A stretch of DNA of 64,000 nucleotides, from the NCBI RefSeq assembly GCF_009829915.1, contig NZ_SZZW01000001.1, positions 248,001 to 312,000 on the forward strand, written 5' to 3'. How positions within the stretch are numbered: position 1 is the first letter of the stretch; every line of letters begins with the position of its first letter. The notes beneath the pieces are model-generated. The model made no database searches. It was not told where the DNA came from and was given only the letters and a program-made list of their open reading frames with translations. Both the position numbers and the translations under genes were made by a program. Origin of the DNA: Pantoea sp. Nvir. GTDB taxonomy: Bacteria > Pseudomonadota > Gammaproteobacteria > Enterobacterales > Enterobacteriaceae. This document shows positions 16,410-53,101 of the stretch, one piece after another.

Positions 16410-16727
16410 TTGCAAGGCAAAACTCTACAAGAGTTCATTATTAATAAAATTAATGATCTTAAAGGTCAGAATATCGTCTCACTTAATGTTCAAGGTAAAT
16501 CTAGTATTACCGACTGCATGATTATCTGTACAGGTAAATCTATGCGTCACGTGATTTCAATTGCTGATCATGTGGTGCATGAATCCCGTACAGTAGGCAT
16601 AGTGCCATTGGGCGTAGAAGGTAAAAATACGGCTGACTGGGTAGTGGTTGATCTGGGGGATGTTATCCTGCACGTGATGCAGGATAACATCCCCCAAATT
16701 TATGAGCTGGAAGAACTTTGGAGCTAA
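16410..16727 (+). CDS. rsfS: Ribosome silencing factor
   Basis: Binds ribosomal protein L14 and blocks subunit joining when nutrients are low. 105 residues, equal to E. coli, starting with TTG (TTG CAA GGC, M-Q-G-K) at 16410; an AAGGGGAA ribosome site lies just upstream. [22 protein letters not shown] and [11 protein letters not shown] are diagnostic. Residues after HVMQ read DNIPQI where E. coli has EESRRL; this change coincides with one arm of a perfect inverted repeat (next entry). Confidence 0.95.
16654..16696. repeat. Perfect 19-bp inverted repeat inside rsfS
   Basis: Left arm 16654-16672 (TGGGGGATGTTATCCTGCA) is the exact reverse complement of right arm 16678-16696, with a 5-base CGTGA loop. 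The left arm encodes the conserved LGDVILHV; the right arm encodes MQDNIPQ, of which only MQ is conserved. So the right arm seems to have been rewritten to match the left. No T run follows, so it does not look like a terminator. Confidence 0.9.
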
Positions 16728-16730
16728 TAT

Positions 16731-17202
16731 ATAAAATTACGGCCTATATCCGTAGATACTAAAATGTTTGACTGATTAAAAAAAGATACCTTATATTCCA
16801 GTCGCTTTTCCACAGATATATAGACGAACCTGTAGTAAGATTGCCTGTGATAAAACATGGCAAGGGTACTAATATCAAGTGTATTCTGGAAAAGAGAGTG
16901 AAGAGATGCCAGCTGCAATGTACAAATATAACGGCATCCCGTGTTACATTGAGGCTTCTGAAATACAAGTGGAAAACGTCTCTGATCGAGTATCAGAGCG
17001 GAATTCTAGTAATTTTAGCTTTTAGCAATGAGATGGCTTCCACTGAGTTAGTTTGCTGCTCAGTAGAAAAGCTTAGCTAACAATAATTTAAGATCCTTTA
17101 AATGCTCCCTGTACCCCGGTTACACTTACAATTTGTTATTAAGAGCATTTATCAAGCATTGTTGAATGCATCACCACCAATTATTCTTATTATCGTGAAT
17201 AA
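16731..17202 (+). pseudogene. rlmH: Decayed rlmH (23S rRNA pseudouridine-1915 methyltransferase)
   Basis: Begins 4 bases after rsfS, as rlmH does in E. coli, but with ATA in place of the start codon: ATA AAA TTA reads KLRPISVDTKM (E. coli KLQLVAVGTKM). The Trp codon after KMFD is a TGA stop. Further on, in other frames, LPVIKHGKGTNIKCILEK matches IPAGKRGKNADIKRILDK, SRVTL matches NRIVTL, KSIYQAL matches ESLYRAW, and ITTNYSYYRE followed by TAA matches the exact C-terminus ITTNHPYHRE. The total span (472 bases) is nearly the intact length (468), so decay is by point changes and small indels. Confidence 0.87.
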
Positions 17203-17236
17203 ACAGTGAGACTAACCCCGATATTTTAAGTAGCGG

Positions 17237-24437: not shown

Positions 24438-26249
24438 CTACATTACCTTTACATGAAAAATGAACACTAAAACTGTGTCAACGCCTAGTACAGCAATTGC
24501 TGTGCCATTTGTCCAGCAACAATTGATGAAAAAGTGATAAATCTAGTTCTTTTGTCGTTACTACGCATTTTTTTGGCGGAGATATTTATATTGGGACTAT
24601 TACAGTTAATAAAATAAGTACTTCCGTAGTTATAACGCTATAAAACATAGATAATCCAGCAGATGATAATGCTATTCTTTTAACAAAACGAGAGGAAAGG
24701 CCCACACCCATACAGCAAGTTCAATTGCTACGTGCCTTTGCACCTAAAGTAAACTTTATACTAAGATGAGGATGTTGATCGCTCATTAACTAAGGTGCTT
24801 TTAAGCAGCCATAGTGAACAAAATTAGTACTAATTAATAAATCTTTAAATCCATCGGATATGGGGTTAATTGCTCCTAGTACTGTAACCTAATAAATTAT
24901 TTTATAATTTATTAGGTTGCTCTTTCTCGTTGCAGATGTGCTCGTCATATTAAGAACAACACTGTAGAATCATTATGCACACAAAAATAAAATAATGTCA
25001 AATGAAGTTTCACAGCTAGTTTAAATTAACTAGATTTTAGTAACATTAAAAAAATAGCGTTAACGTGTTTTTAACAAAATGGGCGACACACTACTTTTTT
25101 AGAAAAAACTAGATTAGTTAGTAAAAGATTAAATAAAAACTACAAAAGATTAGGTATATTAATTATTAATGATTTTAGAGAGGGTTAAGGGAATTTTTTG
25201 CCAAAAAATCACCTCCTGGGTTCAGAAAAAAAGAGATTATATGGTAATGAAAATTTGATTTACTATCTACGGGAACGTAAAGTTCACTTTTGTCTATGAA
25301 TCTTTGACACCAGTAACCTTTCATGGGGCGCACTCTAGTAACTGTTTTAAACGCCTCCATGCACGGGTTCTAGCGCTGCTATCACTACGTACGTTACTTA
25401 ATTTCATTTTGTGCTCATCTTATTTCACAAATGAAAAAAGGATACGAACAAAGGTACAGCAGTATCCATGTACTATGTTGATTAAAAAGTTAATTTAATA
25501 CCTTCGATCGATAATTCTAAGATAAAACCAATTATTTTTTAAAAAATCATAATTTCTTTGTAACAAAAGACTCAATAATTAATCTTTTAGAGACTTTATA
25601 TTTTATTCAATACTATTTTTATTTATGGAGAGGGTGTTGACTGAGCGAATAGAAAAAGTTTGAAGAATACTTGTATGAATTTGATATTACTCAGTAAAAT
25701 ATGTATCATAAATTTTACGGAATATTATTATTGATGTACTCGATACGGTAGAAGGTAAGGAAGAGGGGCTATACTATCTAAATATAATCAATTTTAAATA
25801 ATTAAGATATAAAAAAGGAAGATTGTTAAATACATCAAAAAATGTAAAGGAAAAGAGCGATTAGCATTATACTAAGGGATCTTTCTTTCAACGATCTAAA
25901 AAAACACAGTTTTTTACAATCATGTCTGCTTTACTCATACTACAGTGAGACACAAAACAGAAGGAAATATTAGAATCTAAGAAACTTAGCACGGCTGATA
26001 ACCTATCCGGAATATACTGACTAAACGCGCTTAAATGTAAAAATTAGTGATATGTGTCATAGTGTGTCAAACTAATAGTAGTCAGAATTCTATTATCTAA
26101 TTTTCAACAAATGAAAGGCTAAAAATCTATTACAAAGTAGACCTTTACGCACCAGAAAAATTAATAGTGTGGTAACAATCCATGTCATTAATCTGACTCT
26201 TTTAAAAAGAGTCGCGGAAAATTAACATACATTGTAACATATTTATTAA
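24438..26249. other. Long gene-free spacer between cspE and tRNA-Arg
   Basis: About 1.8 kb with no recognisable gene; the longest empty stretch in the window. In E. coli a large block of genes lies between the cspE region and argU, so this is a deletion junction. Short frames (for example 25304-25498) show no family resemblance. A 15-bp perfect hairpin is at 24886-24918. A minus-strand AGGAGGTGATT near 25207 looks like a ribosome site but no convincing gene follows. Confidence 0.5.
24886..24918. repeat. Perfect 15-bp inverted repeat
   Basis: AACCTAATAAATTAT (24886-24900), loop TTT, then its exact reverse complement (24904-24918). It sits in gene-free DNA some 450 bases from cspE, all AT-rich, with no T run. 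Confidence 0.85.
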
Positions 26250-29948: not shown

Positions 29949-30668
29949 ATGTCGCGCATACTGTTTATTTCAGATTTACATTTATGCCAAGAAAAACCGA
30001 TGATTACTGCAGGTTTTTTAAGTTTTCTAGCACGTGAATCACTAAACTGCGATGCGCTATACATTCTTGGTGACCTCTTCGAAGCTTGGATTGGAGATGA
30101 TGATTCTGACTTACTCCATAAACAAGTTGCTAGCGCGCTGCATGATCTGCCTTTCCAGGTCTTTTTTATTTACGGCAATCGCGATTTTCTAATTAGCAAA
30201 GATTATAGACGTGCCAGCGGCATAACTCTTTTACCAGAAGAGTATGTACTAGATTGTTATGGCCATCGAGTATTGATCTTGCACGGCGATACTCTCTGCA
30301 CTGACGATACCGGCTATCAGCGCTTTCGAGCCACAGTACATCAATACTGGATACAAAAACTCTTCCTCGCGTTGCCTCTCTTTATTCGAAAATTAATTTT
30401 ATCGCGCATGCGCGATGGTAGTAACCAGGCGAATCAGCATAAATCCCTAACTATTATGGATGTCAACGCAAAGACGGTAGAAACGATGATGCTACGCCAA
30501 CATGTCAGGATAATGATCCACGGTCATACTCATCGTCCAGCCATTCATTACTTTGAACTAAACGGCACGCTCTGCGAGCGTGCCGTTTTAGGTGCATGGC
30601 ATCATACATGCGGCTCAATGATTCAACTTGATAATAACGGCATTAGCCTTATTGATTTCGAATTTTAA
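29949..30668 (+). CDS. lpxH: UDP-2,3-diacylglucosamine diphosphatase
   Basis: Membrane-associated metallophosphatase making lipid X in lipid A synthesis. 239 residues (E. coli 240). The calcineurin-like metal motifs are complete: FISDLHL (Asp8/His10 equivalents), [24 protein letters not shown] and HGHTHRP. Start at ATG 29949 ([12 protein letters not shown]). Indicates lipid A is still made. Confidence 0.96.
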
Positions 30669-45224: not shown

Positions 45225-45863
45225 ATTGGAGGCCATTCTTACGAATGGGAATGGTCATTATCGAAGAAGTCCTTGGTAATTACAACCACGGTTTCTAGAA
45301 AATCGTTATTTTCTTAGATAGTATACATTGTCTTCTTATCCTATATCTGTACTAGAGTGGCGATTTTTCTCTGATCCAAACGTCATGCTGTCATCAATGG
45401 ACAAAATTTTTTCACAACTCATCTGGCTCATGATTCTCTACAACTTTGCCAAGCACAATACTAATATGACAACATCTCCAACTGATAACTTCTCCCTATC
45501 TACTAACAGCTGAGATCGCGTTTAAACATTTTTCCTATTTTCTAGAGATATAGCTTATGACATAAGCATTAGTAGCAATGTTGTACTTCAATGACCATAC
45601 ATACTAATAAGTATGTATGGTCATTGTATCACATCAATATACGAGCATTGTATTCTCATTGGAGAGTAGTGAAACGGTGTTTCAACTAAAAGATAAAAAA
45701 GAAGGGGTGCATATTCTTTGTAGGCCGCTGTAACCATTTACAAAATATACACGAGGAAATATTATGGACTAAGGGAACAAAAACGCAAAGAAAAGCTATT
45801 TCCAATAATTTTGGAAAGTGAACAAATAAAGAAATTAAAAATTAACCAGCGGTATTTATAATT
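45225..45863. other. Gene-free spacer between ffs and mdlB
   Basis: About 640 bases. E. coli has ybaZ, ybaY, tesB, amtB and glnK here; none could be recognised, so ammonium transport and its PII protein GlnK seem to be deleted from this locus. A long perfect hairpin is at 45589-45626. Confidence 0.5.
45589..45626. repeat. Perfect 17-bp inverted repeat
   Basis: CAATGACCATACATACT (45589-45605), loop AATA, then its exact reverse complement (45610-45626). It lies in gene-free DNA, more than 230 bases downstream of mdlB, without a T run. It is longer than a typical AT-rich terminator stem. Confidence 0.88.
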
Positions 45864-53063: not shown

Positions 53064-53101
53064 AACATAAAGGCACATCACATTTGATGTGCCTTTATGT
53101 T
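53064..53101 (-). terminator. hupB terminator-like hairpin
   Basis: AACATAAAGGCACATCA (53064-53080), loop CATT, then its exact reverse complement: a perfect 17-bp stem 74 bases after hupB. E. coli has a hairpin in the same hupB-ppiD gap. There is only a short T stretch, so termination strength is unclear. Confidence 0.65.

Follow-up and report, generated by a model that had tools for sequence, protein, structure and literature searches.

Quasipalindrome mutation, in which the nascent strand is used as template and an imperfect inverted repeat is made perfect, is well shown in E. coli lacZ reporters and is interpreted there by the Ripley model (PMC7202029). In coding genes of Saccharomyces cerevisiae, homogenization of repeat arms is reported to give rise to clusters of substitutions that replace up to five neighbouring residues (PMC8604942). 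Mitochondrial protein genes of Nematomorpha contain perfect inverted repeats, for which the authors of that report consider template switching together with weakened selection (PMC6649704). In surveys of bacterial genomes, endosymbionts are over-represented among those richest in inverted repeats, with 28 of them in the top 200, and E. coli ORFs are reported to contain fewer small repeats than randomised controls (PMC10434271, PMC6060812).

We analysed a stretch of 64 kb, referred to here as the window, from a genome of 1,425,354 bases in 11 contigs (G000). This genome appears to be that of SoNv, a Pantoea that lives as a gut symbiont in the stink bug Nezara viridula and is described with 1.425 Mb in 11 scaffolds, 40.6% G+C and 70x coverage (PMC8032781). 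The rsfS gene of the window contains a perfect hairpin and, as in the lacZ reporters, an imperfect repeat seems to have been made perfect with the nascent strand as template; the mutations there are selected reversions, whereas the change here is natural, fixed and length-preserving and lies in a conserved gene (PMC7202029). Neighbouring residues are replaced as in yeast, but the yeast events were placed among near relatives and resolved ancestors, while our bacterial symbiont has distant relatives only (PMC8604942). The repeats of Nematomorpha, which likewise lie in protein genes, measure up to 284 bp and hold conserved residues on both arms, whereas those described here measure 13-20 bp and change conserved residues (PMC6649704). 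Unlike our counts in coding genes, those of the bacterial surveys cover repeats from 6 bp upwards and extend to non-coding DNA (PMC10434271, PMC6060812). In the limited collection of literature that we consulted, no report of such homogenization in coding genes of symbionts was found. The mechanism is known; what seems to be new is how frequent and far-reaching it is among the coding genes of a single reduced bacterial genome.

The rsfS hairpin

The gene for the ribosomal silencing factor, rsfS (16410-16727, forward strand), is an intact ORF of 105 amino acids with a TTG start, and in a profile search it matches the TIGR00090 equivalog at 112.3 bits (cut-off 56.9). The original prediction had described a perfect inverted repeat at 16654-16696, close to the 3' end of this gene, with arms of 19 bp and a loop of 5 nt. 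We found that this hairpin is real: the left arm (16654-16672), which codes for LGDVILH, and the right arm (16678-16696), which codes for MQDNIPQ, lie on the forward strand on either side of the loop CGTGA (16673-16677) and pair at 19 of 19 positions. If one mismatch is allowed (C16653 against A16697), the repeat reaches 22 nt at 95%. The chance expectation of such a repeat, calculated from base composition for arms of at least 19 bp and loops of 0-20, is approximately 9e-6 per 64 kb, and in 20 simulated 64-kb sequences (order-2 Markov model, loops of 0-12) the arms did not exceed 12 bp. A chance origin was set aside on the basis of these expected counts and the codon-conditional simulation described below. 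No second copy of the arm sequence was found within the 64-kb window at up to 3 mismatches.

Downstream of rsfS, the approximately 500 bases up to mrdA (16728-17236) contain no long ORF recognised as rlmH. In E. coli, rlmH lies between rsfS and mrdA, so that rlmH has probably been lost here.

Comparison with relatives

Matches to rsfS were found in 96 of 99 relatives, in 60 of the 61 genomes of the genus and in 277 of the 392 genomes of the family; the only genome of the genus that lacks a match (G014, 2.4 Mb) has an xseA match with stop codons. The protein is 70-78% identical to the copies in the genus. Since the closest protein among the matches listed, its own copy aside, is only 78% identical, many independent changes separate the window from its relatives. 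The comparison set comprised 117 loci, of which all but L102 and L105, which the search pattern missed, were readable (115); these gave 96 distinct sequences, or 95 without the window. The arms were compared in detail with four Pantoea genomes, i.e., G027, G048 (Pantoea piersonii), G007 (P. septica), and G041 (Candidatus Pantoea persica).

We found that the arms pair at 6-11 of the 19 positions in the 95 distinct relatives, and at 10 or 11 in the four compared Pantoea. The right arm of the relatives encodes an EESR-like protein sequence, in line with the original prediction, and the protein sequence of the window's right arm, encoded without complementarity, occurs in 0 of the 95. Val87, Ser94 and Arg95 are each invariant in all 95 distinct relatives, and Glu or Asp is found at position 92 in 94 of them and at position 93 in every one; the window carries L87, D92, N93, I94 and P95. 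The rewritten tract in the right arm (16685-16693, forward strand) comprises five changed bases within nine nucleotides (16685, 16686, 16688, 16690 and 16693), all of which complement the left arm, and results in E92D, E93N, S94I and R95P. The earlier contrast of QDNIPQ with QEESRR is correct for E. coli, but Q96 is not new because the nearest compared Pantoea carry QEESRQ. The short palindrome core TGCA-N5-TGCA, also part of the original prediction, is present in 27 of the 95 distinct relatives. The length of the protein is constant across 24 aligned sequences, and the reading frame and native C-terminal end continue past the repeat. Under independent codon change, modelled on the codon replacements in 141 orthologue pairs, the rsfS segment itself excluded, the log10 probability of the four new codons in the right arm is -8.96 (approximately 10^-9).

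The left arm is also altered. It was thought to encode conserved residues, which holds only in part: a G to C change at 16668 (forward strand) gives L87 in place of the Val of all 95 distinct relatives, and the new base pairs with a G in the right arm that is shared by the relatives. Compared with all four Pantoea, the left arm has derived bases at 16658, 16661, 16664 and 16668. Against G027, G048 and G007, four changes are confined to the right arm and fit the left (16685, 16688, 16690 and 16693), and four are confined to the left arm and fit the right (16658, 16661, 16668 and, depending on the relative, 16667 or 16670). Against G041, there are again four on the right and four on the left. 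Three left-only sites (16658, 16661 and 16668) are the same against all four Pantoea, and the pair 16664/16686 changed on both sides, from C-G to T-A. The expectation that the left arm is intact and that one rewrite ran from left to right is therefore not supported in the form first stated. Despite an identity of only 40% among codons aligned with G027, the 38 arm bases contain zero mismatches, which suggests that the event was probably recent or that the repeat has been re-corrected.

Other coding hairpins

Our data indicate that the rsfS hairpin is not an isolated accident, since six more genes in the sampled DNA contain such repeats. We scanned 506 kb of G000 (the window plus 20 segments from contig 2 and three from contig 1; approximately 36% of the genome), of which 346 kb lie in ORFs, for perfect repeats with loops of up to 20, and three shuffles of each kind (synonymous and codon) served as controls. 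ORFs contained 7 repeats with arms of at least 13 bp, compared with 0.3 in synonymous and 0.0 in codon shuffles. With arms of at least 11 bp there were 21, compared with 2.0 and 1.3, respectively, and with arms of at least 10 bp there were 37, compared with 7.0 in synonymous shuffles. The genes that hold the seven repeats with arms of at least 13 bp were all recognised; they are epmB (20 bp), rsfS (19), potA (15), opgH (14), uvrB (14), lpxH (13) and yhbP (13).

The second gene of the window with such a repeat is lpxH (29949-30668, forward strand; an ORF that matches TIGR01854 and NF003743), whose 13-bp perfect repeat with a 3-nt loop (30560-30588, forward strand) has mostly its left arm changed; the residues LQGAPA of G027 are LNGTLC in the window. 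The longest coding repeat found is that of epmB, with 20-bp arms and a 6-nt loop (contig 2, 425674-425719; L135:5674-5719), in which both arms are changed. Around the 14-bp perfect repeat of opgH (L124:12617-12648, reverse strand), four residues are altered, so that the segment FPVWPQWRPELA, identical in G027 and E. coli, reads FLFGPHWRPEQA in G000.

Six of the seven repeats, all but that of yhbP, were compared with orthologues, and no alignment gaps were reported across them. Changes in one arm that fit the other numbered five on the left and one on the right in lpxH against G027 (two and two against G041), four and none in uvrB (against G027), four and five in epmB (against G048) and two and two in potA (against G027); opgH had one on the right plus four pairs altered on both sides (against G027). 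Among the shorter repeats, an alignment gap lies near that of prfA, those of sufB, sufC, sufD and secD show 1-3 changes per arm, and those of efeB, kdsD and fabF were not comparable at the site.

In the codon-conditional simulation, each codon was redrawn according to the replacements observed for the G027 codon in question, in 30 runs over 141 orthologue pairs (48,835 codons; epmB, kdsD and yhbP were left out). Seven repeats with arms of at least 12 bp were observed, compared with a mean of 0.17 and a maximum of 1 in any run, and four with arms of at least 14 bp were observed, compared with 0 simulated. In the same columns, G027 itself has 1 arm of at least 12 bp and 0 of at least 14 bp.

Perfect hairpins also lie outside the longer ORFs of the window, at 45589-45626 (17 bp), 53064-53101 (17 bp) and 24886-24918 (15 bp); these may be terminators or products of the same process. 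By subtraction, there are 21 non-ORF repeats of at least 13 bp in approximately 146 kb of G000 and 4 in approximately 35 kb of G027, with no clear enrichment per kb.

Control genomes

Arms of at least 13 bp were rare in the ORFs of the Pantoea controls, with 0 in 714 kb of G027, 1 in 178 kb of G048 and 1 in 340 kb of G041, i.e., 2 in 1.23 Mb overall, and the latter two may lie in spurious ORFs. With both counted, the difference between G000 and these controls has a one-sided binomial p of 6e-4. At arms of at least 10 bp, the same controls show a mild excess over synonymous shuffles (36 vs 15.0, 15 vs 4.7 and 28 vs 13.0), which differs from the deficit of small repeats described for E. coli ORFs. 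An excess of small repeats is reportedly general, as the title of a 2008 article by Ladoukakis and Eyre-Walker is said to claim. Among reduced genomes of other genera, G247, G152 and G114 have no repeats of at least 13 bp in 38-48 kb of ORF each. G135, which has one, looked raised, but this repeat, its longest (17 bp), closes a short ORF and resembles a terminator.

Origin of the hairpins

We are confident that the rsfS hairpin is best explained by quasipalindrome template switching, i.e., homogenization of the arms. The ancestor would have contained an imperfect inverted repeat within rsfS, and the V87L change perhaps lengthened its core stem first and so primed the fold-back. During replication, the nascent strand would have folded back on itself at the TGCA core stem, its just-copied arm would have served as template for the other arm, and synthesis would then have returned to the true template at the paired outer ends; a return where the outer ends pair would keep both length and frame. 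We infer the fold-back step itself, as well as the number and direction of events and the strand copied. In favour of the switch that was originally predicted are the imperfect repeat and EESR-like sequence of the relatives, a length-neutral rewrite complementary to the left arm and the excess of similar hairpins in other genes of G000, while the single left-to-right copy that went with it fared less well. Given that the left arm was also altered to fit the right at 16658, 16661 and 16668, such a copy is possible rather than proven, and one copy alone does not predict these left-arm changes. One left-to-right copy after drift of the left arm fits all rsfS sites, since the copied arm takes the complement of the left arm as it then was. 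The chance that three of the four changed left-arm sites fit the right arm is approximately 0.11 (hand arithmetic, one third each), which is a mild coincidence. Alternatives to a single copy are events in opposite directions or mismatch repair in an extruded hairpin. A point against the template switch is the mild excess of arms of at least 10 bp in samples of free-living Pantoea. GC skew was negative in 18 of 21 contig 2 pieces, and the donor arms, read against the skew, appear to point to no single strand.

A mosaic origin, in which the mismatches of an extruded hairpin or cruciform stem are repaired singly, towards either arm and with no copying tract, would account for the fact that rsfS, epmB and potA each have both arms changed to fit the other, and mutS is intact; several template switches in opposite directions would look the same. 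We consider it unlikely, as the changes in uvrB, and in lpxH when compared with G027, fall almost entirely on one arm, and rsfS is accounted for by one copy after drift as well. Independent point mutations might instead have been retained because selection favoured an RNA hairpin acting to slow translation, stabilize the mRNA or end transcription. The 71-nt rsfS stretch does fold into a strong stem (-39.8 kcal/mol, z -7.2, compared with z of -1.0, -2.4 and -1.5 for the equivalent stretch in three relatives) near the end of a gene that is followed by no rlmH-like ORF. However, no intrinsic terminator was called at the stem by the criterion of a stem followed by a T run, invariant residues of the protein are altered, six other genes have hairpins of unrelated sequence at different positions, and independent codon change is itself very improbable, all of which leaves such selection very unlikely. 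No evidence was found for or against the effect on translation or decay of rsfS that the original prediction had considered possible.

Perfect hairpins are also a known shape of foldback artefacts in assembly or amplification. A foldback read would duplicate sequence, not replace it, whereas rsfS keeps its frame, length and native protein end and the pattern recurs in seven genes, six of them compared without a gap; if the genome is SoNv, it was moreover assembled from Illumina reads at 70x (PMC8032781). We therefore regard an artefact as highly improbable. An in-frame palindrome in a host-associated bacterium could likewise recall the insertion of a mobile palindromic element, an origin that is hardly credible given that the length is unchanged relative to relatives, that the window holds no other copy and that each gene's repeat has its own sequence.

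A possible role of nuclease loss and wider meaning

Template switching therefore remains the preferred reading, and G000 offers a candidate cause for its frequency. We found no match to xseA or sbcC in G000, while xonA, recJ and mutS are intact. Exonuclease VII has a role in quasipalindrome mutation. RecBCD has been proposed to limit such mutation (PMC6357072). It is possible, if doubtful, that in this degenerating symbiont the loss of hairpin-processing nucleases, namely the exonuclease VII subunit XseA and SbcC, made repeat homogenization a standing, genome-wide source of in-frame changes of several residues, recurrent, in both directions and in otherwise conserved genes. For such mutations to become fixed in a symbiont, small population size and weak selection may suffice. 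The causal link between nuclease loss and hairpin excess is weak. There is no match to xseA in G135, G152, G114, G154, G128 and G112 either, and the gene is decayed in G136; sbcC, xonA, recJ and mutS were searched for in few of the other reduced genomes. G152 and G114 lack xseA and show no repeat excess (43 and 38 kb of ORF, which are small samples), so that loss of xseA alone does not predict the pattern. In G041, where the part sampled shows little repeat excess, there is no match to sbcC.

Template switching has been studied mostly as rare selected mutations in reporters. Here, in one natural bacterium, conserved residues of several housekeeping genes seem to have been rewritten, and in the six comparable genes neither frame nor length was altered. 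If this is general, such clusters in evolving symbionts could pass for positive selection or for numerous independent changes, and a visible mutational signature might mark the loss of certain nucleases. That link can be tested in symbiont lineages that differ in whether they have them.

Consequences for the RsfS protein

The protein change in rsfS is most likely a tolerated by-product that was fixed in a host-restricted symbiont and not an adaptation. In the AlphaFold model of the protein, whose confidence is moderate (a mean pLDDT of 75.8, compared with 41-47 for the other four models), residues 92-95 lie between a strand (85-91) and a helix (96-104), so that P95 may be tolerated there. The match to the RsfS family (TIGR00090) is retained despite the changed residues.
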